IMG/VR virus record: IMGVR_UViG_3300042892_000963
Span: 1-57,591 of that record
Direction: 5' to 3' (one strand)
DNA from: a virus
Length of the DNA: 57,591 nucleotides
Shown one piece after another: positions 6,894 to 57,591 of the stretch (the stretch's first letter is position 1; each line of letters starts with the position of its first letter). The translations under genes and the position numbers were made by a program. The notes beneath the pieces were generated by a model that was not told the DNA's origin, made no database searches, and saw nothing but the letters and a program-made list of their open reading frames with translations.

Positions 6894-7022
6894 ATGGCAT
6901 CATCCCTCTCTAAACACTCTGCAGTCATCAAACTTGCTACCTATATAAAGGAGACTAGAGATGGCAAAATATCTTTCAACAAAAACTTACGGCAACGACC
7001 GCGGACTTTCATGCTGTTTTAG
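6894..7022 (+). CDS. Possible short leader ORF upstream of and overlapping queD
   Basis: ATG at 6894 is preceded by a good GAGGA ribosome site and opens a 42-residue frame (MASSLSKHSAVIKLATYIKE...) that runs past the queD start in another frame. It may be a leader peptide or simply chance; queD has its own AAGGAG site. Low confidence. Confidence 0.25.
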   Translation: MASSLSKHSAVIKLATYIKETRDGKISFNKNLRQRPRTFMLF

Positions 7023-31779: not shown

Positions 31780-32248
31780 AAAATCTAATCTTGCTAAAGG
31801 CAGAAATAGTTTTGATGCTGAAATAGACGGCACACTGATACCGTTCTTTAATAGGAACGTATCAGAGTATCCCACGGAAGCAGGCGGTGTTAAGTTTGAT
31901 CTAGTTCCTGTTACCAAACAAAAAGATCTAATGATCAATCATGCTAGGATGTATGCCCAGCAAGAATACGATCGTATCATGGAATTAGTCGCTGTGTTGG
32001 AAGGGCAAGCACAGGCTATTAAACGTAGATTAGAAATCACAGACGCTGTTCACGCTGCGGTATATCAGTTTCAACCAGTAATGGGCAACGTCTATTGGTT
32101 GGCGTGGGACAAAAGAAAGCAGCACACATTATTAACTCAGAATGGGCCCAACGATTGGTCCAGCAGTGCTCCGGAAGATTATGAATACCAAGCTCAGGTA
32201 AAGTATATGGGCGACCACACCTGGATGGAAATCATCGATGAATCCTAA
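31769..32248 (+). CDS. DUF2452-like conserved protein
   Basis: A 159-residue protein. The long N-terminal helical region ends with YAQQEYDRIMELVAVLEGQA. The C-terminal half (YQFQPVMGNVYWLAW, LTQNGPNDW and a final GDHTWMEII) follows the F-x-PV-x-G-x-x-Y pattern of DUF2452 proteins, found in bacteria and T4-like phages. Function unknown. Overlaps gp44 by 11 nt. Confidence 0.7.
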   Translation: MPDKKSNLAKGRNSFDAEIDGTLIPFFNRNVSEYPTEAGGVKFDLVPVTKQKDLMINHARMYAQQEYDRIMELVAVLEGQAQAIKRRLEITDAVHAAVYQFQPVMGNVYWLAWDKRKQHTLLTQNGPNDWSSSAPEDYEYQAQVKYMGDHTWMEIIDES

Positions 32249-44201: not shown

Positions 44202-45517
44202 TGCTGTTAAAACAACTGTTCGAAGACGGAACCAAGCATGTGACATTCTGTTTTGGCAGAATGAATCCTCCTACGATTGGTCACAAGCAGGTATTAGATA
44301 CTATGAAAAGCCAAGGTGGCGAAATGAAGATTTTTGTCAGTCAAAGTCAAGACAAAAAGAAAAATCCCCTGGACTATGTGACTAAGATCAAATTCATTAA
44401 GGAAATGTTTCCTCAGTACGCCAAGGATGTAGTAGACAATGCAGGACTAAACACCATTGGTAAAGTAGCCAGCTATCTGCACGAACAGGGATACAACGCT
44501 GTGACATTTGTAGCAGGGTCGGATCGTTTAGAAGATATGAAAAGTCTTCTTACACAGTACAACGGTGTAGAAGGCAAGGCGCACGGGTTCTATAAATTTG
44601 ATGTTATTGATTTTGCCAGCAGTGGAGACCGTGAAGACGGAGCCGAAGGTGTAGCAGGTGTCAGTGCCAGCGGTGCAAGAGCAGCCGCTGCGAATAATGA
44701 TTTCGAAGGATTTCAAGAAGCCACTGGCGCAGGAGAGTTGGCCAAACCGTTGTTCACTGCTGTGAGAAATGGTATGGGCATTAAGGAAGAAGTAGAAGAA
44801 GGGTGGAAAAGTAAAATTGCAGGTGCTGCATTAGCAGGTGCTGCTGCACTAGGTGGCGGTGGGGCTTACGCTCAAAGTTCAGGCGAAGACTTTCTTCCAG
44901 ATATTGTTGCACACGTTACGTTTAAAGTTGACGGTAAAGAAATAACCAAAGATATTAATTTAGGAACAACATATAAGTCTCCAGGAGAAGCTTCAGAAGC
45001 TCTTGAAAAGTTTTTAAAATCTAAAGGTATAAAATATTACGATTTTAATCTTGAACGTGTAAAACCTAAAGACAATGACTATTTAGATAAAACTCCTGCT
45101 AAGAATTCACCAGACCTAAGTAATTTTAGTACATCGTATCTGCAAAAAGTTGCAGCAGGCGAGCATCCGAGACCTATGGTCGATAAAGACGATGCTAAAA
45201 AAGAATTAGCTAAAAGACGTAATGAAAGTGTTTCAGAAGCACCTATCGAGATGGATCCAGCAGATCCAATGGATCCAATGATTCACAGTCATGATAAAGC
45301 CAATCCTGCTAAATTAAAGTATCGCATGCTACGTGCGGCCGGACAACTAAAAGATCTAGCCAGTCGAGCTGAGAATGCCAGTCCGGGCGAGTGGCAACTA
45401 ATGGCTCGTCAGTTTGACGAACTAAAAATGAATATGGAACAGATTCGCCACGCTCTAGAAGAACTAGGTAAAATAAAAAGCAAAGGTGGCATTAGGTCAA
45501 GAGGTATCACTGTATGA
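44201..45517 (+). CDS. NMN adenylyltransferase-like domain fused to a phage structural-type C-terminus
   Basis: A 438-residue protein. Residues 15-190 form a nucleotidylyltransferase fold: VTFCFGRMNPPTIGHKQVLD holds the H-x-G-H-like motif (TIGH), VTFVAGSDRLEDM the central strand, and GVSASGARAAAANNDFEGF matches the I-S-x-T-x-x-R loop in simplified form. This suggests NAD precursor adenylylation. Residues 205-240 are Ala/Gly-rich and hydrophobic (KIAGAALAGAAALGGGGAYA). The C-terminal ~200 residues have a charged coil region and no enzyme match. The start peptide MLLKQLFED could be a prohead-protease site. Confidence 0.7.
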   Translation: MLLKQLFEDGTKHVTFCFGRMNPPTIGHKQVLDTMKSQGGEMKIFVSQSQDKKKNPLDYVTKIKFIKEMFPQYAKDVVDNAGLNTIGKVASYLHEQGYNAVTFVAGSDRLEDMKSLLTQYNGVEGKAHGFYKFDVIDFASSGDREDGAEGVAGVSASGARAAAANNDFEGFQEATGAGELAKPLFTAVRNGMGIKEEVEEGWKSKIAGAALAGAAALGGGGAYAQSSGEDFLPDIVAHVTFKVDGKEITKDINLGTTYKSPGEASEALEKFLKSKGIKYYDFNLERVKPKDNDYLDKTPAKNSPDLSNFSTSYLQKVAAGEHPRPMVDKDDAKKELAKRRNESVSEAPIEMDPADPMDPMIHSHDKANPAKLKYRMLRAAGQLKDLASRAENASPGEWQLMARQFDELKMNMEQIRHALEELGKIKSKGGIRSRGITV

Positions 45518-45690
45518 GAGCAAAAGATTTTGTACCGCCTAGTAAACCTCGTAATTTTGTAGCCAAGAATCAAAAGACTGCAGGTGCTGGCGCACACAAA
45601 GATAAAAAACGTGCAGAGAAACAAGGCAATGTCAAGCACAAGCAGAAACAGTTTGAAGAAGATGTAGAGCAAGATACTAATTCAAAATAA
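45514..45690 (+). CDS. Small basic protein of the internal-protein cluster
   Basis: A 58-residue protein beginning MRAKDFVPPSKPRNFVAKNQ, with a Lys/Gln-rich end (DKKRAEKQGNVKHKQKQFEE). It overlaps the previous stop (ATGA). Proteins starting with MRA-x-E/D-F are repeated in this region (see 46440), which suggests a shared address signal. No enzymatic features. Confidence 0.75.
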   Translation: MRAKDFVPPSKPRNFVAKNQKTAGAGAHKDKKRAEKQGNVKHKQKQFEEDVEQDTNSK

Positions 45691-45698
45691 AAAATATC

Positions 45699-45905
45699 AT
45701 GGACGAATTAGACGAAATTAAAAAACTTGCAGGTATTAACGAATTTCGAGGCTATCAGCCGTATGGTGGCAGCAACATAAGTATTACCGGAAATGAAAAA
45801 GGTGAACTTATGAAAAAACATAATATTAAACCAGGCACTGATGAATGGTTTCAACTGTGGTTTAGTAAACCATACTTAACTGGTGAAAAACCTGTAGGAA
45901 AGTAA
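45699..45905 (+). CDS. Small phage protein
   Basis: A 68-residue protein ([38 protein letters not shown]). The N-terminal L-A-G-I helix is common to small T4-like virion-associated proteins. No known function. It lies just before the second A-type Fe-S carrier. Confidence 0.65.
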
Positions 45906-45907
45906 AA

Positions 45908-46234
45908 ATGGTCGAGATAACAGAATCAGCAAAATCTAAAATAATGGATCTATTGCTAGAAGAGAATAATCCCAAGCTGGCATTACGCACATTTGTACAA
46001 GGTGGCGGGTGCAGTGGTTTCAGCTATGGCTTTACCTTCGACGAAACAAAGAACGAAGACGATTTTGAATTTCCTATCAACGAACAATACAATGTGTTTG
46101 TCGATGCAATGAGCATGCAGTATCTACAAGGTGCTGTTATTGATTACAAAGAAGAAGCAATGGGCAGTCAGTTTGTTATTACTAATCCTAATGCACAATC
46201 AACCTGCGGCTGCGGCAGTAGCTTTTCAGTATGA
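45908..46234 (+). CDS. erpA: A-type Fe-S carrier protein (ErpA-like)
   Basis: A 108-residue HesB/ErpA-family protein. Cysteines are in [15 protein letters not shown] (about 36) and the C-terminal [11 protein letters not shown]. It differs from the IscA at 11743 (ErpA-like GGGCSGFSY...[12 protein letters not shown]), so the phage has two distinct carriers. ErpA typically delivers 4Fe-4S clusters to essential enzymes. The nearest radical SAM protein here is a possible client. The next small ORF overlaps its stop. Confidence 0.9.
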
Positions 46235-46273
46235 ACCCAAACAATTACCCAGTATATCCAGAGGACGACGGTT

Positions 46274-46453
46274 ATGACACTCCAAAAAACCCTTACAGCC
46301 CTGTGTAATAAATTTATCACAGGTTTGGCCATTTATGGCATCAGCATGAGCCTAGCCTATGCTGGTTACATCGGACAAGACATTAATCCACAATATGATT
46401 GGTGTGACCCGAGGTTCTGTTGTCCTCCAGGAAATTTAGATGAGAGCAAGTGA
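46274..46453 (+). CDS. Small secreted cysteine-rich protein
   Basis: A 59-residue frame with GAGGACGACGG as ribosome site. The N-terminus (TLQKTLTALCNKFITGLAIY then GISMSLAYA) is a signal peptide with an AYA-G cleavage site. The mature part is about 29 residues with three cysteines (DWCDPRFCCPPG). It overlaps the next gene by 14 nt. It could be a small periplasmic or envelope peptide; function unknown. Confidence 0.6.
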   Translation: MTLQKTLTALCNKFITGLAIYGISMSLAYAGYIGQDINPQYDWCDPRFCCPPGNLDESK

Positions 46454-46781
46454 ATTTGTTGTAGAAAAACGCCGCAAGCGTAAGCCTCGGTGGGCTGCTT
46501 ATGGCCCAGGGCCGTATGGCGGTTACGGGTATGCTACTGGATACAGTGGCGATGGCGGCAGCAGTGGTGGTGACGGAGGCGGTGGTGAGAGCATCGAGCA
46601 TGAAAACTTTGCAGATGGTAAAAAGCCTGGTCGTAAAGGACTTGCTAAACGCAGTGGAGTCAATACCAAAGCCAGTGTTAGCAGCCTAAGAAAAACAGCT
46701 AAAAATTCATCAGGTGAAAAAGCTCGCATGGCGCACTGGCTGGCTAACATGAAAGCAGGCCGTGCTAAGAAGAATAAATAA
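46440..46781 (+). CDS. Small basic protein with capsid-targeting-like N-terminus
   Basis: A 113-residue protein. MRASEFVVEKRRKRKPRWAA has an F-V-V-E then K junction like T4 internal-protein targeting peptides (M-K-T-Y-Q-E-F-I-A-E). A Gly/Tyr/Ser-rich middle (YGPGPYGGYGYATGYSGDGG) and a basic C-terminus (KPGRKGLAKRSGVNTKASVS, ...AGRAKKNK) follow. It could be a DNA-associated protein packaged in the head. The last codons overlap a late promoter box. Confidence 0.65.
   Translation: MRASEFVVEKRRKRKPRWAAYGPGPYGGYGYATGYSGDGGSSGGDGGGGESIEHENFADGKKPGRKGLAKRSGVNTKASVSSLRKTAKNSSGEKARMAHWLANMKAGRAKKNK
46773..46780 (+). promoter_or_regulatory. Late promoter-like box
   Basis: AATAAATA overlaps the stop codon of the preceding gene (TAA at 46779-46781) and lies 5 nt before the ATG at 46786. 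Confidence 0.45.
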
Positions 46782-46785
46782 CAGT

Positions 46786-46971
46786 ATGAAAATATCAGAA
46801 ATTTTAGAATCAGCAACAGCAGGCGCTACCAGTGCTGGTAACGTAGCTATAGGTGCTGTATACAAAAATAAACCCGGAAAAACGGCAAAAAACAAAGACG
46901 GAACTGCCAAAAACGCATTAGATCTTAAAGGAACTAATCTGTTAACTGGTGGGTCTTTGGTAAAAAGATAA
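46786..46971 (+). CDS. Small basic protein with targeting-like N-terminus
   Basis: A 61-residue protein. MKISEILESATAGATSAGNV has the same M-K/R-x-x-E-I/F-x-x-E start as 46440, with an I-L-E then S junction. The rest is Lys/Gly/Asn-rich (NKPGKTAKNKDGTAKNALDL). The ATG at 46786 is preferred over 46762. Candidate internal virion protein; no enzyme motif. Confidence 0.65.
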   Translation: MKISEILESATAGATSAGNVAIGAVYKNKPGKTAKNKDGTAKNALDLKGTNLLTGGSLVKR

Positions 46972-46974
46972 ATA
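46967..46974 (+). promoter_or_regulatory. T4-type late promoter box
   Basis: GATAAATA (7 of 8) overlaps the stop codon of 46786-46971, 26 nt before ATG 47001 with TTAGGAA as ribosome site. Confidence 0.6.
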
Positions 46975-47000
46975 CATAATACACTTTTAGGAATGTGAAC

Positions 47001-47867
47001 ATGGACTTCAAATCGTTAATCAGCAAAATAGAAAGCATCGACGGCAAAATCGATACTCCAAAAGCACCACAGCTACCCAAGTCTGTGCAATTGAATGAAG
47101 ACGCACAACTGCGTGTTCTAAGCGGCCGTACTACTTACGTTGCTGAAGCTAAAAAGAAAGCTGAAGAAGACGTTAAAGAAGCCGACGACATGAAAGTAGG
47201 CGATAAGAAAAACATCGCTACTGGCACTGTTGAAAAAACAAAAACAGGCATTGTTCACAAGAGCAGCAAGGCCTATGGCGGCAGTGAAGAAAAAGAAGCT
47301 GATGAAGATGACAAGCCAAAGAAAAAAGCCAAGAAAGAAAGTGTAGAACCTCAGTTTAAAAGCAAGTTCATGAAAATGGTCGAAGCCAAGAAAGAAGAAG
47401 CTGCTGATAAGAAAAAGAAAATGGCTAAGAAAGAAAAGATGGCAGAAGGATCTAAGCCAGACTTCTTAGACGTTGACAAAGACGGCGACAAGAAAGAGCC
47501 AATGAAAAAAGCTGCTGCTGACAAAGGCGATGACAAGCCAGCTGGCAAGAAAGGCATGAGCGACAAGCAGGCCAAATATTTTGGTAAGAAAACTGAAAGC
47601 GCAATGATGCCTAAAGGCAAAAAGCGTCCAGTTAAAGAAAGTGTAGAAACAAAATTATCTTTCAAACAAATGGTACAGTTGGTACAAGAAAGTGGTGGTC
47701 AACAACAGATTGATCCTGTAGACAAAGCTCTGTTTACCTGGGCCGAGCGTGTGGCCAAGAACAAACTAGGCGAAGGTATGAAAGCTGATCTGTACGCAGG
47801 TCTAGTATACGAACGCAACGGCGGTGTATTTGAAATGTACGATGTACTATCAGAAGACCAAAAATAA
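47001..47867 (+). CDS. Lysine-rich core/internal virion protein
   Basis: A 288-residue very Lys/Glu-rich protein, more than one third charged. Helical N-terminus (DFKSLISKIESIDGKIDTPK), low-complexity K/E/A middle (KKKKMAKKEKMAEGSK), an EF-hand-like D-x-D-x-D loop (SKPDFLDVDKDGDKKEPMKK, about 157), and a compact C-terminus (DPVDKALFTWAERVAKNKLG). Possible prohead-protease sites include YVAE before A and QLNE before D. ATG 47001 is preferred over GTG 46995. It ends at a strong terminator. Likely a prohead-core or packaged protein. Confidence 0.7.
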   Translation: MDFKSLISKIESIDGKIDTPKAPQLPKSVQLNEDAQLRVLSGRTTYVAEAKKKAEEDVKEADDMKVGDKKNIATGTVEKTKTGIVHKSSKAYGGSEEKEADEDDKPKKKAKKESVEPQFKSKFMKMVEAKKEEAADKKKKMAKKEKMAEGSKPDFLDVDKDGDKKEPMKKAAADKGDDKPAGKKGMSDKQAKYFGKKTESAMMPKGKKRPVKESVETKLSFKQMVQLVQESGGQQQIDPVDKALFTWAERVAKNKLGEGMKADLYAGLVYERNGGVFEMYDVLSEDQK

Positions 47868-47884
47868 TTTTTAGTTTGGTAAAC

Positions 47885-47916
47885 AAAAGCCAGTCATAGG
47901 TTGACTGGCTTTTTTT
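47885..47916 (+). terminator. Rho-independent terminator overlapping a promoter
   Basis: A perfect 12-bp stem, AAAAGCCAGTCA (47885-47896) with TGACTGGCTTTT (47902-47913), 5-nt loop and T run. It closes the internal-protein cluster. Confidence 0.9.
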
Positions 47917-47929
47917 ATGACTATATAAT
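47901..47929 (+). promoter_or_regulatory. Sigma-70 promoter nested in the terminator
   Basis: TTGACT (47901-47906) in the 3' arm of the terminator, 17-nt spacer, TATAAT (47924-47929). AGGAGAG lies at 47938-47944 before ATG 47950. Likely the promoter for the replication block. Confidence 0.75.
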
Positions 47930-47949
47930 AGTTGTATAGGAGAGAACAA

Positions 47950-48210
47950 ATGACAAAAATGTACGGGCCAGAAGAAAAAGCCAAATTAGAAAGATTGATC
48001 AATGAAGGATCAAATGTTCTACGAGAAGTCGAAGACCTGCAAGAGGGTCTCAAAGAAACTGTGAATGCTGTTGCAGAAGAATTACAGATCAAACCCAGTT
48101 GGATCAACAAAGCAATACGCATTGCACACAAAGACAATTGGAAAGATCACGAAGCTGAATGGAACGAGATCGAAATGATCCTCGGCGTAACAAAAAAACT
48201 GCCTGAATGA
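47950..48210 (+). CDS. dsbA: DsbA-like double-stranded DNA-binding protein (late-transcription type)
   Basis: An 86-residue charged helical protein. The C-terminal half, VAEELQIKPSWINKAIRIAH followed by KDNWKDHEAE, resembles T4 DsbA, a small DNA-binding protein implicated in late transcription (AKDELGV...ALYHKDN...EAE). The N-terminal helical part (GPEEKAKLERLINEGSNVLR) is divergent. Not to be confused with the disulfide oxidoreductase DsbA. Location just before the polymerase gene fits an early/middle regulator. The upstream alternative start at 47932 lacks a suitable ribosome site. Confidence 0.6.
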   Translation: MTKMYGPEEKAKLERLINEGSNVLREVEDLQEGLKETVNAVAEELQIKPSWINKAIRIAHKDNWKDHEAEWNEIEMILGVTKKLPE

Positions 48211-48497
48211 ATGAACTATTAAAACCTACGTTTGATTGGATTAGGGATGATTGGAATTCTCATCCCTTACGGTTTTTTATTGAGTTACTCGCTTGGGCTA
48301 TTAGTATTGGTTGTTCAATCACTATGGCTGTCACGGTTCCCAATCCGCCATTACTTGCTCTATATCCTGTTTGGATCGCTGGCTGTGCCATGTATGCTTG
48401 GGCTGCTTATACTCGGAAATCATTTGGCATGCTGGCTAACTATATCTTGCTAACCGCAATTGATACGTTTGGCCTAGCAAGAATGCTAATTAATTAA
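48207..48497 (+). CDS. Membrane protein of unknown function
   Basis: A 96-residue protein. After a short polar N-terminus (NELLKPTFDWIRDDWNSHP) come three hydrophobic segments (about 23-46, 50-67 and 72-92; e.g. FFIELLAWAISIGCSITMAV). The ATGA junction with the previous gene supports coupling. Proteins of this kind lie next to gp43 in some T4-like cyanophages. Role unknown. Confidence 0.75.
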   Translation: MNELLKPTFDWIRDDWNSHPLRFFIELLAWAISIGCSITMAVTVPNPPLLALYPVWIAGCAMYAWAAYTRKSFGMLANYILLTAIDTFGLARMLIN

Positions 48498-48571
48498 ATA
48501 ATGTGAGAAGGTAGGCGGGCCATAAACCGCACATTGGTATTTGCAAGCCTAAAATTGCATAGGAGAAAAAA

Positions 48572-51241
48572 ATGAGTTTCGTGGACGCATACTACGATCG
48601 CGACAATGACACTATCCGTGTCGTTGAACGTGACGACAAAGGGCAGAGGCATTTCAAAGACTATCCTGCCAGACATATATTCTATTACAACGATCCCAAA
48701 GGCAAGTTCCAATCTATCAAAGGTGAACCCCTTAGTCGAGTAAGTTCAAAGAATGTTAAAGAACATCGCAAAGAACTTGCTATACATTCAAACAAAAGAC
48801 TCTACGAGTCAGACATTAATCCTATCTATAGATGTCTTGAAGACCATTATCTCAATCAAGATGCTCCAAAACTAAATGTAGCATTTTTCGACATTGAGGT
48901 AGACTTCGATCCAGAACGTGGTTATGCATCACCAGACGATGCGTTCATGCCAATCACCGCCATTGCTGTGTATCTACAATGGATGGAGACCATGGTATGT
49001 TTGGCTATTCCCCCTAAGACTCTGAATATGGAAGAAGCAACTAAAGCAGTCGCAGAATTCCCCAACGTCATGCTGTTTGACAACGAAGCAGACATGTTGA
49101 ATACTTTCTTGGATCTAATACAGGAGGCGGATGTGCTGAGTGGCTGGAATTCGGAAGGCTTTGATATTCCGTATACCGTTAATCGTGTTACTAAGGTTCT
49201 CAGCAAAGAAGATACCAAACGATTTTGTCTATGGAACTGTTTGCCTAAGAAACGCGAATATGAAAAGTTCGGTAAAACTGCCACCACATATGACTTCATC
49301 GGTCGTGTGCATATAGACAGTCTTGAGCTGTATCGCAAGTACACTTATGAAGAACGCCATACATATCGATTAGATGCCATTGCTGAATATGAACTAGGTC
49401 AAAGAAAGACCCAATACGAAGGCACACTAGATCAATTGTACAACAACGATTTTAAAACATTCATTGAATACAACATCAATGACTGTAAACTGTTGGATGA
49501 TCTAGATAAGAAACTGAAATTCATCGATTTGGCTAATACAATTGCACACGAAAACACAGTGTTGTTAGCAACCACTATGGGTGCAGTGGCTGTGACTGAA
49601 CAAGCTATTATCAACGAAGCTCACCGCAGAGGTATGATAGTTCCTAATCGTAAAAAGATGGAAGAGCACGGAGACACACAGGCTGCTGGTGCTTACGTTG
49701 CATATCCTAAGAAAGGCATTCATGAGTGGATCGGTTCGCTGGATATTAACTCACTGTATCCTTCAGCGATTCGTGCGTTGAACATGGGTCCGGAAACCAT
49801 TGTAGGGCAGTTGCGACAAGATGGAACCAAGGATTTTATTGCAGCAGAAATGTCCAAAGGCAAATCTTTTGCGTCAGCTTGGGAAGGTATATTTGGTAGT
49901 CTCGAGTATTCCGCAGTTATGAACAAAGAAGTAGGTAGAGAAATCAACATCGACTGGGAAGGCGGCGGTTCTGACACTTTAAGTGCGGCACAGGCCTATG
50001 ATCTTATATTTGACAGCAACCAACCTTGGATGATCTCAGCTAATGGCACTATCTTCACATATGAAACAGAGGGAGTGATTTCAGGACTGCTGGCTCGTTG
50101 GTACAAAGAACGTAAGGAAATGCAGGCCAAGCTGAGAGAATGTATCCAAGCTGGCAACAAGATTGAAGAAGAATACTGGGACAAGCGACAGTTGGTCAAG
50201 AAGATTCTGTTAAACAGTCTATATGGTGCGATTTTAAATCCGGGCTGTAGATTCTTTGATAACAGAATTGGTCAGTCAACTACACTAACTGGTCGACAAA
50301 TTGCCAAACACATGGCATCAAAAGTTAACGAAATTATCACCGGAGAGTATGACCACGTAGGCAAAGCGGTCATATACGGTGACACAGACTCTTGTTATTT
50401 TTCAGCGTATGCTACACTGAAAAAAGACATTGAGAAAGGCCTGATTCCTTGGAACAGAGAATCAGTTGTTGAACTTTATGATACCATAGGAGATACAGTC
50501 AATGGCACATTTGTCAAATTCATGCAAGATGCATTCCACGTCCCCCGAGCTAGAGCCGAGGTCATCAAAGCAGGTCGCGAAATTGTTGCAAGCAAGGGAC
50601 TGTTCATTACCAAAAAACGATATGCAGTGCTCTACTACGACAAAGAAGGCAAACGAGCAGACACAGAAGGCAAACCAGGAAAAATTAAAGCGATGGGGCT
50701 TGATCTCAAGCGTTCAGATACCCCGGTTGTTATACAAGACTTCTTAAGTGAAGTGTTGACTAAGACACTAACTGGCGTGACCAAAGAAGAGATCCTGCAG
50801 TATATCACTGATTTCCGCACAGAGTTTAAAACTCGACCGGGTTGGGAGAAAGGTAGTCCCAAACGTGCTAACAATATTACAGAATACGCTGCCAAAGAAA
50901 AGAAGGCAGGCAAGACTAACATGCCCGGACATGTCAGAGCTTCATTAAATTGGAACACGTTGAAGCGAATGATGGACGACAAGTACTCAATGCAGGTAGT
51001 AGATGGCATGAAAGTGATTGTGTGCAAGATCAAAGACAATCCTATGGGGTATACTTCTGTGGCCTATCCTGTGGACGAACTGAGATTACCGCAGTGGTTC
51101 AAAGATCTGCCTTTCAACGATGCTGAAATGGAAACCACAGTGATCGATGAAAAGTTAGGAAACCTTATTGGTGTATTGGAATGGGACATCAGTTCAACAA
51201 GGTCGGATAATACATTTAACAAATTGTTTGATTTTGAGTAA
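48572..51241 (+). CDS. 43: Replicative DNA polymerase, family B (gp43)
   Basis: An 889-residue single-polypeptide polymerase (T4 gp43 is 898). Exonuclease motifs FFDIEVDFDPE (about 106), LSGWNSEGFDIPY and YNINDCKLLDDL. Polymerase motif A GSLDINSLYPSAIRALNMG (about 389), motif B KKILLNSLYGAILNP and motif C IYGDTDSCYFS (about 602). The C-terminal tail (NTFNKLFDFE) resembles the clamp-binding peptide of T4 gp43. An AGGAG ribosome site precedes the ATG. It should work with gp44 and gp45 of this phage. Confidence 0.97.
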   Translation: MSFVDAYYDRDNDTIRVVERDDKGQRHFKDYPARHIFYYNDPKGKFQSIKGEPLSRVSSKNVKEHRKELAIHSNKRLYESDINPIYRCLEDHYLNQDAPKLNVAFFDIEVDFDPERGYASPDDAFMPITAIAVYLQWMETMVCLAIPPKTLNMEEATKAVAEFPNVMLFDNEADMLNTFLDLIQEADVLSGWNSEGFDIPYTVNRVTKVLSKEDTKRFCLWNCLPKKREYEKFGKTATTYDFIGRVHIDSLELYRKYTYEERHTYRLDAIAEYELGQRKTQYEGTLDQLYNNDFKTFIEYNINDCKLLDDLDKKLKFIDLANTIAHENTVLLATTMGAVAVTEQAIINEAHRRGMIVPNRKKMEEHGDTQAAGAYVAYPKKGIHEWIGSLDINSLYPSAIRALNMGPETIVGQLRQDGTKDFIAAEMSKGKSFASAWEGIFGSLEYSAVMNKEVGREINIDWEGGGSDTLSAAQAYDLIFDSNQPWMISANGTIFTYETEGVISGLLARWYKERKEMQAKLRECIQAGNKIEEEYWDKRQLVKKILLNSLYGAILNPGCRFFDNRIGQSTTLTGRQIAKHMASKVNEIITGEYDHVGKAVIYGDTDSCYFSAYATLKKDIEKGLIPWNRESVVELYDTIGDTVNGTFVKFMQDAFHVPRARAEVIKAGREIVASKGLFITKKRYAVLYYDKEGKRADTEGKPGKIKAMGLDLKRSDTPVVIQDFLSEVLTKTLTGVTKEEILQYITDFRTEFKTRPGWEKGSPKRANNITEYAAKEKKAGKTNMPGHVRASLNWNTLKRMMDDKYSMQVVDGMKVIVCKIKDNPMGYTSVAYPVDELRLPQWFKDLPFNDAEMETTVIDEKLGNLIGVLEWDISSTRSDNTFNKLFDFE

Positions 51242-51249
51242 TTTCTAGG

Positions 51250-51278
51250 TTGCTTTTTACTCAAGATCTAAATATAAT
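51250..51278 (+). promoter_or_regulatory. Sigma-70-like promoter for the clamp gene
   Basis: TTGCTT (51250-51255), 17-nt spacer, TATAAT (51273-51278), overlapping a late-box-like TCTAAATA (51267-51274). Start near 51285; CAGGAGAA precedes ATG 51302. Two promoter types may allow expression through infection. Confidence 0.55.
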
Positions 51279-51301
51279 CTTAATATACAGGAGAATTCTC
51301 A

Positions 51302-52039
51302 ATGAAAGATATTTTACAAGACATCGTTAGCCATACGCAGAATCTAGGCTTCTTGACCACAGTCAAGGTAACAGGCACAGATAAAGGCACAACTGTTAAC
51401 TCAATGGCCGATGACCGTTCAGTTATCATGGAGGCAGAAACTGCTAATCCATACCCAGATATGATCGGTGTGTTTGGTATGCCGCAACTCAACAAGTTGA
51501 AATATCTCTTGGAAGGTGCAGAGTACAAAGAAGGGGCAAAGATCAGTATTACCACAGCAGAACGCAATGGTGAAACTTTGCCAGTGGGTCTACACTTTGA
51601 AAACAAAGACGGCGACTTTAAAAACGACTATCGCTTTATGAATCAAGAAATCATCAATGAAAAGATGAAGACTGTGAAGTTTCGTGGCGTTAAGTGGGAT
51701 GTTGAAATTGAGCCGTCAGTGACCTCTGTGCTTCGCTTTAACTTCCAAGCAGGTGCTAACTCTGAGCATCCTACATTCCTTGCCAAGACAGAAGGCGGCA
51801 ATCTTAAATTTACGTTCGGTGATGCATCAACACACGGCGGCGAGTTTGTATTTGCACAGAACGTTGCAGGTAAACTTGATCGTGGTTGGACTTGGCCTGT
51901 GTTGCCAATCTTGAGCATTCTTAAGATTGCAGATACCAACACCACAAAGATGTCGTTGAGCAATGAAGGTGCTATTCAGATCACTCTAGATAGCGGACTT
52001 GCTACTTACAAATATATCATCCCAGCACAAGCTGCCTAA
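51302..52039 (+). CDS. 45: DNA polymerase sliding clamp gp45
   Basis: A 245-residue clamp subunit (T4 gp45 is 228 residues and forms a trimeric ring). LTTVKVTGTDKGTTVNSMAD, VFGMPQLNKLKYLLEG and the C-terminal LATYKYIIPAQA are recognisable gp45 segments. It tethers gp43 to DNA and, in T4, also activates late transcription with gp33 and gp55. It is loaded by gp44/gp62. An AGGAGAA ribosome site precedes the ATG. Confidence 0.92.
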   Translation: MKDILQDIVSHTQNLGFLTTVKVTGTDKGTTVNSMADDRSVIMEAETANPYPDMIGVFGMPQLNKLKYLLEGAEYKEGAKISITTAERNGETLPVGLHFENKDGDFKNDYRFMNQEIINEKMKTVKFRGVKWDVEIEPSVTSVLRFNFQAGANSEHPTFLAKTEGGNLKFTFGDASTHGGEFVFAQNVAGKLDRGWTWPVLPILSILKIADTNTTKMSLSNEGAIQITLDSGLATYKYIIPAQAA

Positions 52040-52041
52040 AT

Positions 52042-52407
52042 ATGATCAAAGGTTTACAAGGCGTAACAGGCATTACGGTTGGTGGCGGAAATACCGCCCT
52101 ACCATATGTCGGTCCAAACTCAAGCAACCCAATGACTGGGATGATGCGTATCCACAACACCGAACTAGAAGTGTTTAACGGATCAAATTGGCAAATGCTA
52201 TCTACCAGCTATGCCACAGTAGGCCTAGATCAAGATGTGCTAGACATTATACAATGGGCTCGTAAAAAACGCCAAGAAGAAAATGATTGGTACAAACTTG
52301 CTTCATCTAATGAAGCAGTTCGTATCGCATTAGAACAACTAGAACAGGCAAAAACAAGATTAGAACTTACAGCAATTTTATCGAGAGAATATGAAACAAC
52401 CAATTGA
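52042..52407 (+). CDS. Small structural-type protein
   Basis: A 121-residue protein. The N-terminus (GLQGVTGITVGGGNTALPYV) and MTGMMRIHNTELEVFNGSNW are typical of small virion-associated proteins in T4-like aquatic phages. The C-terminal half is a long charged helix (WARKKRQEENDWYKLASSNE). It lies 2 nt after gp45 and overlaps the dpdA start by 17 nt. Confidence 0.75.
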   Translation: MIKGLQGVTGITVGGGNTALPYVGPNSSNPMTGMMRIHNTELEVFNGSNWQMLSTSYATVGLDQDVLDIIQWARKKRQEENDWYKLASSNEAVRIALEQLEQAKTRLELTAILSREYETTN

Positions 52408-54001
52408 CCTAACACCTTTACAGAAAGACTATGCTGTGTATTTGCCAGCTATCAGTTCTTTCTATTCAACTTATGTTGCAAAACAACGACTAGAAGAATT
52501 TGTTTCTAAAGATCGAATTCCTGCGGGATTTGATCGTGGCATTGAAGGCATGAACTTCTTAAATGCTGATCAAGGATACTTTACCTACAAGTATGCTCTG
52601 TATTCAGCAGGTCACGCACAGTTAGATCTTGAAAAGTCAATGACTCAAGAATCAATGATACAAGACCGTGATCGACCTAATACAATGATTTTAGGTGATT
52701 CAGGTGGATATCAGATTGGTAAAGGTGTTCTTAAGTTTGATTGGTTGAACTTTGAAGGGCCAGAAGCTACTAAGACTCGTCAAAAGATTCTTGAGTGGCT
52801 TGAACTTACTGCTGACTGGTCAATGATGTTAGACGTTCCAACATGGGCATGTGATCATATTCATTCACCAAAGACTGGATTGAAAACATTCGAAGACTGT
52901 CTAGAAAAGACTCGCTACAATAACGATTACTTCTTAATGAATCGGTTAGGTCAAACCAAATGGCTTAATGTTCTGCAAGGCGGAGACTGGGATACTGCTG
53001 AGAAATGGTATGCTGGCGTTAAAGAGTTTAGCGACCCCAAAGGCAAGTATGCCGGACGTGAAGCTGAAGGTTGGGCATTTGGTGGTGCTAATATGTGCAA
53101 GATGGATATCACCCTCAAACGTCTAATGACTATGCGTGACGAAGGTATGCTAGACGGCAAGAACTGGATTCACTTCTTGGGTACTGCACAGCTAGACTGG
53201 TCATGCTATCTAACACAGATTCAAAGACAAATACGTAAACATATCAATCCAGAACTTACTATCAGTTTTGACTGTGCAAGTCCGTTCATTGCCACTGCTC
53301 ACGGACTTGTCTATACAAATGCACAGCATACCAACAAGCGTTGGTCAGTGATCATGGATAAGGCTCCGGATAATAAAGCACTTGCTGGGCGTCACGACAT
53401 TCCGTTTCCTTTTGAAAGTGAGTTTGCAAGTCGATTGACTATGGGTGATATTGCCTATTACGATTACGGTGTTCGTAAGACTGATCAAGAATTAGCGGGT
53501 AAGAAATTTGATCATCTAAATCCAGAACACTATCATACTGTGCCCAAACTAAACAAGTTAGGCAAGATTCCGAACAAGACCAGTTGGGATAGTTTCAGCT
53601 ATGCATTAATGATGGGGCATAATGTTGAATGTCATATCAAGGCAGTACAACGTGCTCAACAGTTAATGGACATTGAATGTGCAAGATTTAAACCAGACTG
53701 GAGAATGAAAAGTATTGAAGGCAAAAAAGAAATTGAATTCAGTGATTGGGTTCCAAACAAAATTCTTTACTTTGGCACATTCGTTGAAGAACTATTCAAT
53801 ACTAGAACTAAAGCAGAAGCATTTGACATGATTGAGACTGCTGGACTATTCTTGAAATCGTTAGAAGGTGCTCGACTACAAGGAGGGCCTGCTGCAAATA
53901 CTTTTGGTAGTTTGTTTGAGTTTGATGATGGTAAAAAAGCTGGAGAAATTGATTTTGCAAATCCAGATGACGATGACCTAAATAGTCTTGTAGCCGAATA
54001 A
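52391..54001 (+). CDS. dpdA: DpdA-like tRNA-guanine transglycosylase family protein
   Basis: A 536-residue protein of the TGT superfamily, similar to phage DpdA proteins that insert 7-deazaguanines into DNA. Conserved elements: ILGDSGGYQIGKG (Asp103, the first catalytic Asp), MMLDVPTWA, LNVLQGGDW, GWAFGG, IHFLGT, and SFDCASPF with Asp294 at the position of the TGT nucleophile. The zinc-ligand pattern of bacterial TGT is not evident, and the protein is about 160 residues longer. FolE and QueD encoded here would supply precursors. The start overlaps the previous gene. Confidence 0.8.
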   Translation: MKQPIDLTPLQKDYAVYLPAISSFYSTYVAKQRLEEFVSKDRIPAGFDRGIEGMNFLNADQGYFTYKYALYSAGHAQLDLEKSMTQESMIQDRDRPNTMILGDSGGYQIGKGVLKFDWLNFEGPEATKTRQKILEWLELTADWSMMLDVPTWACDHIHSPKTGLKTFEDCLEKTRYNNDYFLMNRLGQTKWLNVLQGGDWDTAEKWYAGVKEFSDPKGKYAGREAEGWAFGGANMCKMDITLKRLMTMRDEGMLDGKNWIHFLGTAQLDWSCYLTQIQRQIRKHINPELTISFDCASPFIATAHGLVYTNAQHTNKRWSVIMDKAPDNKALAGRHDIPFPFESEFASRLTMGDIAYYDYGVRKTDQELAGKKFDHLNPEHYHTVPKLNKLGKIPNKTSWDSFSYALMMGHNVECHIKAVQRAQQLMDIECARFKPDWRMKSIEGKKEIEFSDWVPNKILYFGTFVEELFNTRTKAEAFDMIETAGLFLKSLEGARLQGGPAANTFGSLFEFDDGKKAGEIDFANPDDDDLNSLVAE

Positions 54002-54010
54002 GGAGTTGAC

Positions 54011-54238
54011 ATGTATCAAAATAGAATAAAGCATCTAGAAGAAGCGCATCGTGCTTTGGACAAACAGATAGACAGTATGGAAAAAACTGGCATCTATGAT
54101 GATCTAAAAATAGAAGAATTGAAGAAACAGAGGTTGCGTTTAAAGGACGATATTGTTATACTTAAACACAAGCACGAAGCAGTGATGCAAGAAGCACAGG
54201 CAGAACAAGAAGCAAAAAGAAACGGACTAGAACTATGA
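54011..54238 (+). CDS. Small coiled-coil protein (DUF465/SlyX-like)
   Basis: A 75-residue protein that is one long coiled coil (HLEEAHRALDKQIDSMEKTG, LKIEELKKQRLRLKDDIVIL). The L-x-x-x-H-x-x-L-D...LKK-x-RL-x-LKD-x-I pattern matches DUF465-type bacterial proteins. AGGAG precedes the ATG. Function unknown. Confidence 0.75.
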   Translation: MYQNRIKHLEEAHRALDKQIDSMEKTGIYDDLKIEELKKQRLRLKDDIVILKHKHEAVMQEAQAEQEAKRNGLEL

Positions 54239-54381
54239 AATGTAATACATGCGGTCAAGAGGTTTCAACCAACTGCGATTGGCAACAAGGTCGTTGCCCG
54301 CATCGAATTCCATTCTTAAATGATTATCATTTTCGATATCTCAACTTAATTAACTCAATCAAAAACTGGTTTAAACGATGA
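54235..54381 (+). CDS. Small zinc-ribbon protein
   Basis: A 48-residue protein with C-x2-C (KCNTCGQEV) and C-x7-C (NCDWQQGRCPHR), a compact zinc-binding unit. ATGA junctions tie it to both neighbours. Similar short CxxC proteins with CDWxQGRCPH are common in T4-like phages. Function unknown. Confidence 0.75.
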   Translation: MKCNTCGQEVSTNCDWQQGRCPHRIPFLNDYHFRYLNLINSIKNWFKR

Positions 54382-54911
54382 AAAGAAATTACGAGTCAGG
54401 TGTTACTGATGCTATCACTTTCTTCACTGGGATAGAAATCGAACATACACCTGCATACGGAATGAAAACGCTGTTTGTTGTCGGGGAACATGATCCGTAT
54501 GTAATCATGGAACTGGCGAGAAATCATAAATGCGAACATATCTACTTCGGAGCTAATCAAAGTTTCAAAACGCTAGGCGTCAATGATTCAGCAACGTGGC
54601 GTCCTTGGGAGAATATGATTTATGTATGTCTCGATGCTGAAGATGGATTTTGGTGTACCTTAGACTTTGATGTTAAAGAAACAGAAGGACTGCTTGAAAG
54701 CGGTCTTACAGAAAAGCGTAGATTTATTCCGCAGATCAGTGTAAAATTACCTTATCTAAATCAACTGGGCTATAATGCTACATTAAAGATAGATGACAAA
54801 GATTTTAACGCAAGCAATCCTGGGGTGTGGTGCCATAACCTGCAGGACCTATTAGGAAGAGATCGCTTCACTAATTGGGATCAATATGGCAAAGATGAGA
54901 TTATCAAATGA
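54378..54911 (+). CDS. Conserved hypothetical protein of the dpdA region
   Basis: A 177-residue protein (KRNYESGVTDAITFFTGIEI, EHTPAYGMKTLFVVGEHDPY, HIYFGANQSF). Alpha/beta, with no membrane segment. Its conserved location next to dpdA-type genes suggests a link to DNA modification, but no catalytic motif is recognised. Coupled to both neighbours by ATGA overlaps. Confidence 0.75.
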   Translation: MKRNYESGVTDAITFFTGIEIEHTPAYGMKTLFVVGEHDPYVIMELARNHKCEHIYFGANQSFKTLGVNDSATWRPWENMIYVCLDAEDGFWCTLDFDVKETEGLLESGLTEKRRFIPQISVKLPYLNQLGYNATLKIDDKDFNASNPGVWCHNLQDLLGRDRFTNWDQYGKDEIIK

Positions 54912-55297
54912 GTGGTGGATACGCCGTAGCATCAACTGCAAAGGTTCCAAGAAGGATTCCAAGGATTACTGGTGCTAATACAGTTAAACGTGCAAGACAA
55001 TACGTAGAAGAAAGACCTATGAAACTAACATTTAAACAAAGAATTCGCAACTGGCTAATGAACGACAACGACGATGCTGAGTACGGTAATTCTATCAGCG
55101 TTGACGAAGAAGGCCCGAATATTCAAACACAGTCATTTAGATTAAATGTCTACAGTGCCGGTGGCGGAACTATTATCGAAACTACCAAATATGATCGTCA
55201 AAGAGACGACCACCGTCACAGCCTGCATATAGTCACCGACGACAAAGACCTTGGTGAAGAATTATCCAAAATTATCACCATGGAGAGTCTAAGATGA
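54908..55297 (+). CDS. Conserved hypothetical protein
   Basis: A 129-residue protein. A basic N-terminal extension (about 37 residues) precedes a typical phage segment MKLTFKQRIRNWLMNDNDDA. The C-terminal beta/alpha domain (VYSAGGGTIIETTKYDRQRD, HIVTDDKDLGEELSKIITME) is conserved in T4-like cyanophages. An internal ATG at 55019 could be an alternative start giving the conserved core only. Confidence 0.75.
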   Translation: MSGGYAVASTAKVPRRIPRITGANTVKRARQYVEERPMKLTFKQRIRNWLMNDNDDAEYGNSISVDEEGPNIQTQSFRLNVYSAGGGTIIETTKYDRQRDDHRHSLHIVTDDKDLGEELSKIITMESLR

Positions 55298-55542
55298 ACA
55301 CACAAATTCAAGAAATTCTAAATAAGTCAACAGAAGATATTATGGGTGTTCCTGTCGTCAATCAAGAACTATTTGCTAGACTTCTTATAGAAGAATGTGC
55401 TAAAATATGTTTTGAACTTAGATTTACCACAGAAGGTCCTGCAGAAGGTGCATCATATCAACGCACACTCTGCGGAACTGCAATTAAAGAAAACTTTGGA
55501 CTTCAAGGCAAAGGCCCAATAACTGCAAAGAACGTAAAATGA
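55294..55542 (+). CDS. Small conserved phage protein
   Basis: An 82-residue protein (QEILNKSTEDIMGVPVVNQE, RLLIEECAKICFELRF, YQRTLCGTAIKENFGL). The F-A-x-L-I-x-E-E-C-A-x-I-C motif occurs in many phage small proteins of unknown function. ATGA overlaps at both ends. Confidence 0.75.
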   Translation: MNTQIQEILNKSTEDIMGVPVVNQELFARLLIEECAKICFELRFTTEGPAEGASYQRTLCGTAIKENFGLQGKGPITAKNVK

Positions 55543-55928
55543 TTATTAGACAAGACCAAAGACCTAACAAAATGATTTGGGTTACCTTCCGCAAAGAAGG
55601 TATTCACAAATATCCGGCCGCACTTACAGATGCCAACCTTGCTACAGGTGATGAGTATGATGTAAGTTTTCTAGGATATCCACATCGTCACATCTTCCAC
55701 TTTAAAGTTTGGATTGGTGTTACGCACGATGACCGCGATATCGAGTTCATTCAGTTTAAACGCTGGTTGGAAAAACTGTACGCAGAAGGTACACTCCAAC
55801 TAGACTACAAGAGTTGCGAGATGATGTCAGGCGATTTGTTTGACGCTATCTCCAATAAGTATCCAGGTCGCGAGATTTGGATTGAGGTCTCCGAAGACGG
55901 AGAAAATGGTTCATTCATCAAATACTAA
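55539..55928 (+). CDS. Possible T-fold protein related to QueD
   Basis: A 129-residue protein. YPHRHIFHFKVWIGV followed by DRDIEFIQFKRWLEKLY resembles the HGH-x-Y-x-V...D-F-x-x-L-K segment of T-fold enzymes (QueD, PTPS). LQLDYKSCEMMSGDLFDAIS and EIWIEVSEDGENG parallel the later LDH...PT-x-E-N-x-A...V-x-V-x-E segment. Exact metal ligands are not all conserved, so activity is uncertain. Its location between dpdA and folE fits a pathway role. Alternatively it is an unrelated conserved phage protein. Confidence 0.6.
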   Translation: MIIRQDQRPNKMIWVTFRKEGIHKYPAALTDANLATGDEYDVSFLGYPHRHIFHFKVWIGVTHDDRDIEFIQFKRWLEKLYAEGTLQLDYKSCEMMSGDLFDAISNKYPGREIWIEVSEDGENGSFIKY

Positions 55929-55939
55929 AAGGAACATCG

Positions 55940-56164
55940 ATGAAAAACTACAAGGACTACAGGTACTTTGAAAATCGTCCTGACGTTGTGAAAGTGTGGG
56001 AAGACCTTGAGGCCTACCACGATTGGTGCAGATTTCAACTCTGCGATTTCAACCCTGCAGATCTCTATCGTAGAGATTCTCAAAACTATGGATCGTATCT
56101 TGCCAGTAAGCGGCCAAGACGTCCATATCAAGGCAACAGACCAAACTTTCAAAAGAGAGGTTAA
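55940..56164 (+). CDS. Small conserved phage protein
   Basis: A 74-residue protein (MKNYKDYRYFENRPDVVKVW, CRFQLCDFNPADLYRRDSQN). Basic C-terminus (KRPRRPYQGNRPNFQKRG). Found in T4-like cyanophages; function unknown. AAAGGAACATCG is the ribosome site. Confidence 0.75.
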   Translation: MKNYKDYRYFENRPDVVKVWEDLEAYHDWCRFQLCDFNPADLYRRDSQNYGSYLASKRPRRPYQGNRPNFQKRG

Positions 56165-56167
56165 AAA

Positions 56168-57265
56168 ATGGCACGAGTTTTTCTTATTGATCTAGAAGCA
56201 GTTGAGACACGTTACACAGGTCAGTGGAAAACTCATGTGCCTGCGTTACTTAAAAAGGCAGGACACAATGTTCAAATTATATCTGGGCCTGAAGATATTC
56301 CTTCAGCCACTACTCCTGGTGCTTTTCTTAATTTTGGTGGCACCAATATATACAAGTCTAGTCAAGTTGAGCAGATGGGCCGGTTATTTTGTAACGGAGC
56401 CGTTCATCCCGGCGATCACTTTATCTTTACTGATGCTTGGCATCCTGGTATCATAAACTTAAAGTACATGAGTGAGTTGTTGGGTATTCCCGTAACTACA
56501 CATGGCTTATGGCATGCTGGCAGTTATGATCCACAGGACTTCTTAGGACGTCTTGTTGGAGATAAACCCTGGGTACGTCATGCAGAGAAGAGTTTCTACC
56601 ACGCTTTTGATCACAACTACTTTGCCACAGACTTTCACATTCATATGTTTTACGAGAATTTGATTCAACCTGATCCGGATCGTAAAGTAAGTATGTACAA
56701 GACTGTATTTGATGATACTTTATTCACCGACAAGGTTGTTCGCACAGGATGGCCCATGGAGTATATGACTGATACTCTACTCATGTACAAGAATATGCCC
56801 AAGCGTGATCTTATCTTGTTCCCGCATCGTATTGCTCCTGAGAAGCAGGTCGAAATCTTTCGTGACCTAAAACATCATTTGCCTCAATATGAGTTTGTTG
56901 TTTGTCAAGATCAACAACTAACAAAAAATGAATACCATAATTTACTAGGTGAAGCTAAAATGGTGTTTAGTGCTAACTTACAAGAAACACTAGGCATCAG
57001 TTGGTATGAAGGTGCTATAGTAGATGCTATCCCAATGGTTCCCGATAGACTAAGCTACAGCGAAATGGCGATGGACACATTTAAGTATCCTAGCAAATGG
57101 ACTGAATCGTTTGACGCTTACACTGTACATCGTCCAGACATCTGTAAAACAATTATAGAGCATATGGAAAATTACAGAACTCGTATACCTAGCCTAAATA
57201 AACAGGTAGATATACTAAAAGAAAACTTTTTTAGTTGCAATAAACTATTAGAGATGTTAAAATAA
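56168..57265 (+). CDS. GT-B-fold glycosyltransferase
   Basis: A 365-residue protein. An N-terminal Rossmann domain (ARVFLIDLEAVETRYTGQWK, LLKKAGHNVQIISGPEDIPS), and a C-terminal domain with LILFPHRIAPEKQVEIF and MVFSANLQETLGISWYEGAI followed by PMVPDRLSYSEMA. This is the E-x-x-G-x-x-x-x-E-G/A...P-x-x-P-D-R pattern of GT4-like retaining enzymes. It is encoded between dpdA and folE, so a DNA-base, nucleotide or deazaguanine acceptor is possible by context; a cell-surface acceptor is the alternative. Confidence 0.7.
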   Translation: MARVFLIDLEAVETRYTGQWKTHVPALLKKAGHNVQIISGPEDIPSATTPGAFLNFGGTNIYKSSQVEQMGRLFCNGAVHPGDHFIFTDAWHPGIINLKYMSELLGIPVTTHGLWHAGSYDPQDFLGRLVGDKPWVRHAEKSFYHAFDHNYFATDFHIHMFYENLIQPDPDRKVSMYKTVFDDTLFTDKVVRTGWPMEYMTDTLLMYKNMPKRDLILFPHRIAPEKQVEIFRDLKHHLPQYEFVVCQDQQLTKNEYHNLLGEAKMVFSANLQETLGISWYEGAIVDAIPMVPDRLSYSEMAMDTFKYPSKWTESFDAYTVHRPDICKTIIEHMENYRTRIPSLNKQVDILKENFFSCNKLLEMLK

Positions 57266-57307
57266 TATAATATATGTCATCCACGACATTAACTCGGAGA
57301 AACTCAA

Positions 57308-57591
57308 TTGACAGATAAAAAAGAAACAGGCCTAGACGCAATGGCAGGCGATGGCGGATATCAAGAAGCATACCTAGGCGATCACATCCGCTTTAAAATG
57401 AAACGTGAGGGCAAACGTTTCTGGGCAGGTGACAACATTAGTGATTACCTGCACGAAGGCGACATAGAAAAACTAATCGACGAAGCAACTCCTGCATTTG
57501 AACAAGTGCTAGATAGTTTGCTTATTGATCGTGAAAACGATCCCAACAGTAAAGGTACTGCAAGACGACTTGCCAAGATGTACTTTAATGA
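57308..57591 (+). CDS. folE: GTP cyclohydrolase I, N-terminal part (cut by the window edge)
   Basis: The frame starts at TTG 57308 with CGGAGAA upstream and runs off the end. GDNISDYLHEGDIEKLIDEA and NDPNSKGTARRLAKMYFN match the N-terminal helices of FolE (D-x-x-R-E-G-x-x-x-T-P-x-R-V-A-K-M-Y). FolE makes 7,8-dihydroneopterin triphosphate from GTP, the first step of 7-deazaguanine synthesis. The catalytic residues lie beyond the window. TATAAT at 57266-57271 may be a promoter -10. Confidence 0.8.
   Translation, partial: MTDKKETGLDAMAGDGGYQEAYLGDHIRFKMKREGKRFWAGDNISDYLHEGDIEKLIDEATPAFEQVLDSLLIDRENDPNSKGTARRLAKMYFN

Follow-up and report, generated by a model that had tools for sequence, protein, structure and literature searches.

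A predicted QueC-independent 7-deazaguanine DNA-modification module, with an accompanying glycosyltransferase, in a large uncultured phage

Introduction

Replacement of guanine in DNA by 7-deazaguanine derivatives protects some phages from restriction. In the routes described in the papers we consulted, base synthesis rests on QueC and insertion on known DpdA families, enzymes related to tRNA-guanine transglycosylases (TGT) such as Zymomonas mobilis TGT and human QTRT1. Vibrio phage nt-1, which carries dPreQ0 in its DNA, encodes the TGT-fold enzyme DpdA2 with FolE, QueD, and QueE nearby (PMC6884629). Enterobacteria phage 9g makes dG+ through QueC and an amidotransferase (PMC6884629), and its DpdA, like bacterial DpdA, is proposed to act by base exchange. 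Phages with partial pathways are known, and hosts may contribute the missing steps (PMC6884629). Furthermore, a 7-carboxy-7-deazaguanine (CDG) decarboxylase, DpdL, the transglycosylase DpdA3, and the bases dDG and dCDG in phages have reportedly been described (Cui et al. 2023, NAR gkad657); glycosylation is not known to have been reported there. Glycosyltransferases that act on modified phage DNA bases are exemplified by the T4 alpha- and beta-glucosyltransferases, whose substrate is 5-hydroxymethylcytosine.

Here, we analyzed a 57,591-nucleotide stretch of an uncultured phage (IMG/VR record IMGVR_UViG_3300042892_000963, positions 1 to 57,591; hereafter, the window). The original prediction, made from the sequence alone, was that folE, queD, and a TGT-family protein with both catalytic aspartates cover the entry and exit of the deazaguanine pathway, and that QueE and QueC, not in the window, lie elsewhere or come from the host. 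The genes that it described are present, with the corrections given below, and its interpretation is supported only in part.

Results

The TGT-like gene occupies positions 52391 to 54001 on the plus strand, as do all window features described here, and encodes 536 amino acids. Searches of Pfam (including the TGT family PF01702), PHROGs, and NCBIfam returned no match, and searches of PDB sequences returned no meaningful one, such that homology rests on fold, profile-profile comparison, and motifs. An AlphaFold2 model built with 22 close relatives had a pLDDT of only 47, whereas a model built with 30 diverse relatives had a mean pLDDT of 86.4 and a pTM of 0.87. In a Foldseek search of the PDB, ranks 1 to 24 for this predicted structure were all TGT/QTRT1 (best E value, 3.8e-7; probability, 1.00; TM-score, 0.5 by target length), and the first other fold had an E value of 1.4e-2; a search of a viral structure library also matched nt-1 DpdA2. 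The two catalytic aspartates expected of such an enzyme, a general acid/base and a nucleophile, D103 and D294, are identical in 164 of 164 homologues, none of which has the CxCxxC zinc motif of tRNA TGT. The dN/dS ratio is 0.04 to 0.07, so this is a real gene under purifying selection. In a profile-profile alignment, its motifs fall in register with those of nt-1 DpdA2. However, a shallow profile compared with the single nt-1 DpdA2 sequence gave a negative result, a DpdA2 profile does not find the corresponding enzymes of phages PA5oct, Phosso, or Vibrio phage 2.275.O, and the reverse search was also negative. DpdA is the right functional class by fold, residues, and genomic context, with activity on DNA inferred, but as far as tested, the enzyme belongs to neither sequence family of PMC6884629 and is tied to DpdA2 only by profile-profile comparison and fold.

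Within the window, folE is cut by the contig end. Only the first 94 codons (57308 to 57589, within a feature that runs to 57591) are present, starting at a TTG at 57308 or an ATG 11 codons further, and the fragment is too short to be matched by PF01227. A contig that is 99.94% identical to window positions 45042 to 57591, over 12.5 kb (L003), carries the whole gene (L003:12267-13013; PF01227 E value, 3.8e-40). A search for queE and queC beyond the window had been named beforehand as a check. We found queE on L003 (L003:17540-18403; phrog_2076 E value, 1e-51), 4.5 kb after folE, in keeping with the first of the two predicted possibilities, that it lies elsewhere in the same phage. In contrast, no PF06508 (QueC) match was found in the window record, which is an incomplete genome, in the whole contig of L003, or in the complete genomes of PA5oct, Phosso, ACP17, and BUCT-ZZ01. 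The queD-like gene lies at 6961 to 7485, 45 kb from dpdA, and matches PF01242 (E value, 3.7e-12) and phrog_2389 (E value, 1.1e-32). It is of a divergent type that appears to have lost canonical zinc-site residues, with HGY in place of the usual HGH, and members of the same subfamily sit beside FolE and QueE in ACP17, BUCT-ZZ01, and Cellulophaga phage phiST.

The module is larger than originally described. Of 74 distinct relatives with enough flanking sequence, 71 have folE or queE, and in 71, dpdA is followed by two genes that had been overlooked. One (55539 to 55928; 129 amino acids; phrog_17812, of unknown function) encodes a small protein with an invariant His/His-x-His triad (H23/H49/H51) that is probably a T-fold, QueD-like protein, although this assignment rests on the triad and a weak profile match (probability, 43%). 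An hhalign comparison of this family with FolE was negative, and a PDB hit of its profile to bacterioferritin is judged to be due to chance. The other (56168 to 57265; 365 amino acids) encodes a GT-B (GT4-like) glycosyltransferase with R221-x4-K226 and E273-x7-E281. PF00534 matches 8 of 23 family members (best E value, 4e-6), the window copy alone being below Pfam thresholds, and R221 and K226 are present in 105 of 105 sequences. The PA5oct homologue, EST35_0317, is adjacent to the dpdA of that phage.

Other genes complete the neighborhood. A conserved protein of unknown function (54378 to 54911; 177 amino acids) is present in 66 of the 74 distinct relatives and also in PA5oct and ACP17; a PDB hit of its profile to a capsid protein is judged to be due to chance. 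A small conserved protein of unknown function (55940 to 56164; 74 amino acids) is present in 57 of 74. Upstream of dpdA in 69 of 74 is a gene (51302 to 52039; 245 amino acids; phrog_12062) whose Phosso homologue is annotated as a sliding clamp, and next to the module is a phage DNA polymerase (48572 to 51241; phrog_262 E value, 2e-198). No tRNA genes were found in the window. Palindrome avoidance in the window is mild except for CGCG (observed/expected, 0.43), and we place no interpretation on it.

The association extends to other phages. The T-fold and glycosyltransferase genes occur with FolE, QueE, and DpdA2-type enzymes in ACP17, X1, and BUCT-ZZ01, so the link survives a change of DpdA family. 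Of 11 isolates with the T-fold gene, 9 have no QueC match in the whole record and 2 have weak partial ones (in phage D479, a partial 33-bit match), whereas the two clear QueC phages tested lack the T-fold gene. Six isolates (phiST, RHph_I1_18, Ahp1, Bakedbeans, D479, and MA9V-3) have FolE and the T-fold gene without the glycosyltransferase, phiST also having a TGT-fold protein, and in some T-fold phages no DpdA was detected. Conversely, seven bacterial dpdA homologues have the glycosyltransferase next door without the other genes. A homologue of the transglycosylase in Vibrio phage 2.275.O lies beside annotated QueF, preQ0 transporter, QueC, and FolE. The thymidylate-synthase/hydroxymethylase family is absent from five glycosyltransferase carriers, namely, the complete genomes of ACP17, X1, and BUCT-ZZ01 and the records G001 and G002 (G001 shows no terminal repeat, so its completeness is uncertain), but PA5oct and Phosso have a gene of this family.

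Discussion

Relative to the nt-1 system, with which it shares a phage TGT-fold enzyme and FolE, QueD, and QueE, this module differs in its T-fold and glycosyltransferase genes, neither of which nt-1 has in this form, and in its lack of a clear QueC, which nt-1 has; the transglycosylases are related only at the profile level. With moderate confidence, we favor a model in which the phage makes a 7-deazaguanine base from GTP, inserts it into its own DNA after replication by base exchange, and probably adds a sugar. In this view, FolE and QueD would convert GTP to 6-carboxytetrahydropterin, QueE would convert that to CDG, and the T-fold protein, rather than QueC making preQ0, would process CDG. 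The TGT-fold enzyme would cleave guanine from DNA through D294, forming a covalent intermediate, and install the deazaguanine, and the GT-B enzyme would glycosylate the inserted base or its precursor. The phosphoribosyltransferase found between folE and queE in relatives could recycle the guanine released. Our analysis establishes the genes, the predicted fold, the catalytic residues, the co-occurrence, and the lack of clear QueC and of a hydroxymethylase family in whole genomes with the module. The FolE, QueD, and QueE reactions and base exchange on DNA are inferred from homology, and the reaction of the T-fold protein, glycosylation of the base, guanine recycling, and protection from restriction remain hypotheses without chemical evidence. 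QueC activity is not strictly excluded, given the partial match in D479 and the fact that the records G001, G002, and G014 encode PP-loop proteins with a QueC-like zinc motif. The altered zinc site of the window's QueD, the weak basis of the T-fold assignment, and the T-fold phages that lack the glycosyltransferase or a detected DpdA also count against the model. Furthermore, if the T-fold protein were a CDG decarboxylase, its product would offer no obvious handle for a sugar. A QueC-less route from CDG nonetheless fits the gene content.

The original prediction is supported in holding that the TGT-fold enzyme, FolE, and QueD belong to one deazaguanine pathway aimed at DNA, but its assumption that QueC is merely out of view, and that this is the standard preQ0 route, is not supported. 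The main alternative, which we consider unlikely although the strongest of the rivals, is ordinary dPreQ0 (or dG+) modification in which the phage supplies FolE, QueD, and QueE, the host supplies QueC, DpdA inserts preQ0, and the glycosyltransferase and T-fold protein serve another purpose. Host contributions to partial pathways, the pairing of a homologous DpdA with QueC in Vibrio phage 2.275.O, and the queuosine pathway of Pseudomonas aeruginosa, the host of PA5oct, are consistent with it, yet it does not explain why the T-fold and glycosyltransferase genes follow the pathway across two DpdA families, nor the split between T-fold and QueC. Less likely still is QueC-independent modification without any sugar, in which the T-fold protein makes the final base (for example, 7-deazaguanine by decarboxylation of CDG) and the glycosyltransferase acts on another target. 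The six isolates without the glycosyltransferase fit this reading, as do dDG and dCDG, reported in phages in 2023, but 71 of 74 module copies carry the glycosyltransferase beside dpdA, and the seven bacterial homologues have it next door without the other genes.

We rejected two further readings as very unlikely. A transglycosylase that acts on tRNA to boost queuosine in host tRNA would fit the best PDB fold matches, which are tRNA enzymes, and the base synthesis genes shared between both pathways, but it is disfavored by the missing zinc motif, the link to DpdA2, the position next to the DNA polymerase and the clamp-like gene, and the lack of tRNA genes in the window. Glycosylation of phage-made hydroxymethylated pyrimidines, independent of the deazaguanine genes, has a precedent in T4 and could be accommodated in PA5oct and Phosso, but the required family is absent from the five carriers named above.

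The module is present in hundreds of uncultured phage contigs and in cultured phages such as PA5oct and Paride, where the transglycosylase and most of its partners are annotated as hypothetical, and the model is open to direct test in cultured Pseudomonas, Acidovorax, and Xanthomonas phages. It is possible, though on present evidence somewhat less likely than not, that large phages share a widespread QueC-independent pathway in which a T-fold enzyme converts CDG into a base that a new DpdA subfamily inserts into DNA and a dedicated glycosyltransferase decorates, with a reduced DpdA-glycosyltransferase pair also in some bacterial chromosomes. If our favored reading is right, the module adds a very divergent DpdA subfamily and two enzyme families to the deazaguanine pathway and predicts a glycosylated deazaguanine, not mentioned in the literature we searched, which would point to an undescribed kind of DNA armor against bacterial defenses.

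The 57,591-base window spans one whole IMG/VR record and is a phage fragment, with genes for a phage DNA polymerase (phrog_262, E 2e-198), a clamp loader, PhoH, and tail-fibre or baseplate proteins. In the largest close relative (G001; 281,658 bases), dpdA and queD lie about 55 kb apart, compared with 45 kb here, so most of this phage's genome is probably out of view. The window also encodes UV endonuclease UvdE (PF03851; 9496-10587), Fe/Mn superoxide dismutase (PF02777; 10853-11410), and a cytidylyltransferase (PF02348; 80-739) and a DAHP/KDO-8-P-synthase family protein (PF00793; 7637-8479) that are probably KdsB- and KdsA-like and would make up a CMP-KDO route in the phage. Across the window, CGCG is underrepresented (26 observed, 61 expected), while GATC is not.

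The observation underlying the original prediction, a transglycosylase-family gene with both catalytic aspartates accompanied by folE and queD, is real. Open reading frame (ORF) 52391-54001 had no match in the family libraries searched and no PDB sequence match. However, a structural model built with 30 diverse relatives is good (pLDDT 86.4, pTM 0.87), and its first 24 matches against the PDB are all tRNA-guanine transglycosylases (TGTs; E 3.8e-7 to 5.1e-4), whereas the first other fold has an E value of 1.4e-2. Coverage is partial, with a TM-score of about 0.5 by target length. Among viral models, it matches DpdA2 of Vibrio phage nt-1 and an annotated TGT of Achromobacter phage Motura. A profile of 164 relatives aligns with a DpdA2 profile at E 3.4e-5 (probability 72%) with the catalytic motifs in register: DSGGYQ with DSGGLQ, LQG with QG, HFLG with HMLG, and SFDCAS with SYDSST. 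D103, D148, and D294 are identical in 164 of 164 sequences, none of which has a CxCxxC motif, and dN/dS is 0.04 to 0.07.

The original prediction placed QueE and QueC elsewhere in the genome or in the host. Contig L003, which is 99.94% identical to the last 12,550 bases of the window and runs on past it, completes folE (PF01227, E 3.8e-40) and carries queE 4.5 kb further on (phrog_2076, E 1e-51), so the apparent absence of QueE is an effect of the contig end. The three cluster cysteines of QueE (C32, C36, and C76) are conserved in 58 to 59 of 60 homologues, with an unusually long spacing before the third. The window also encodes IscU-like (PF01592) and A-type carrier-like (PF01521) iron-sulfur assembly proteins (11385-12069), which could serve radical-SAM enzymes of the phage such as QueE, and a radical-SAM protein that is not QueE (PF04055, E 5e-8; 32238-33425). 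No QueC was found in the contig of L003 or in the window.

We next asked which genes accompany this DpdA. Of 74 distinct DpdA proteins of this family with at least 7.5 kb of sequence downstream, 71 are accompanied by both a 129-residue protein (55539-55928 in the window) and a glycosyltransferase (56168-57265), 66 by a 177-residue unknown protein (54378-54911), 55 by a phosphoribosyltransferase, and 71 by folE or queE. The phosphoribosyltransferase (PF00156; L003:14557-15096) is kept between folE and queE in relatives and may recycle guanine released by base exchange; its homologue in phage BUCT-ZZ01 is annotated as xanthine-guanine phosphoribosyltransferase. The cultured Pseudomonas jumbo phage PA5oct has the same DpdA (43% identity), glycosyltransferase, 129-residue protein, phosphoribosyltransferase, and QueE in one stretch, and FolE and two QueD genes elsewhere. 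Phage Phosso has dpdA in one place and the genes for the 129-residue protein, glycosyltransferase, FolE, and QueE in another.

The glycosyltransferase is GT-B of the GT4 type, as 8 of 23 members match PF00534, R221 and K226 are invariant in 105 homologues, and E273-x7-E281 is nearly so. The 129-residue protein has an invariant H...HxH triad in 134 of 134 sequences, as in QueD-type enzymes, and aligns weakly with the QueD profile at its C-terminal end (probability 43%, E 2.4e-4). We refer to it as a probable T-fold protein.

If these two genes belong to the deazaguanine pathway and not merely to one phage lineage, they should stay with it when the DpdA family changes. They do: in phages ACP17, X1, and BUCT-ZZ01, they lie with FolE, QueE, and a DpdA2-type enzyme, and the window-type DpdA profile finds nothing there. 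We also compared the distribution of the T-fold gene with that of QueC. Nine of eleven isolates with the T-fold gene have no PF06508 match in the whole record; of the others, D479 has a 33-bit match to the C-terminal third only and X1 has a 16-bit match. In contrast, phages nt-1 and 2.275.O have clear QueC (172 to 180 bits) and no T-fold gene. The sample is small and was not drawn at random, but the split is clean, and it suggests that the T-fold protein takes over from the product of QueE, 7-carboxy-7-deazaguanine (CDG), where QueC is lacking.

Some features complicate this picture. The QueD of the window belongs to a subfamily with HGY in place of HGH; given that the same subfamily stands beside FolE and QueE in ACP17, BUCT-ZZ01, phiST, and MA9V-3, we think that it works, although this is inferred from context alone. 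The genomes G001, G002, and G014 encode PP-loop proteins with a QueC-like zinc motif in distant clusters. In the two large relatives G001 (145-151 kb and 230-261 kb) and G002 (240-277 kb), 19 and 15 radical-SAM proteins, respectively, occur in clusters next to PP-loop ATPases with this motif (L082 and L083). Furthermore, several phages with the T-fold gene show no DpdA by either the window-type or the DpdA2 profile, although phiST does have a TGT-fold protein.

The DNA glucosyltransferases of T4 act on 5-hydroxymethylcytosine, and a similar target could be considered here. However, the enzyme family behind hydroxymethylpyrimidines (PF00303) is absent from G001, G002, ACP17, X1, and BUCT-ZZ01, all of which have the glycosyltransferase. 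The simplest remaining DNA substrate is the deazaguanine, but whereas the genes, their conservation, and their co-occurrence are observed, this substrate and the exchange of bases in DNA are inferred. A CDG decarboxylase (DpdL), a DpdA3 family, and the bases dDG and dCDG were reportedly described by Cui et al. 2023, and it is possible that the T-fold protein is DpdL or that this enzyme is DpdA3. If the T-fold protein is a decarboxylase, its product offers no obvious place for a sugar, so the two simplest subhypotheses pull against each other.

Homologues of this DpdA also occur in about 60 alpha- and betaproteobacterial genomes (loci L346-L406; Shinella, Novosphingobium, Limnohabitans, Sulfitobacter, and others) without deazaguanine synthesis genes within 8 kb. 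At seven of these loci (L352, L377, L383, L384, L393, L394, and L398), the glycosyltransferase homologue is close by, and, by our reading of the sequences, recombinase-like and helix-turn-helix-like ORFs flank some (L352 and L361). Possibly, this is a chromosomal island that modifies DNA.

Overall, the interpretation in the original prediction, modification of phage DNA with a 7-deazaguanine, is partly supported. Taking our preferred explanation together with the two leading alternatives, and allowing for unknowns, a deazaguanine in the DNA of this phage is very likely. The QueC-independent, glycosylated version is our best explanation and is somewhat more likely than not. The literature searched contains no mention of glycosylated 7-deazaguanine DNA, and the paper on phage Paride does not mention deazaguanine, although papers outside this set may. 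By sequence, the enzyme is not a DpdA2 as tested; it is inferred to work like a DpdA and looks like its own subfamily.
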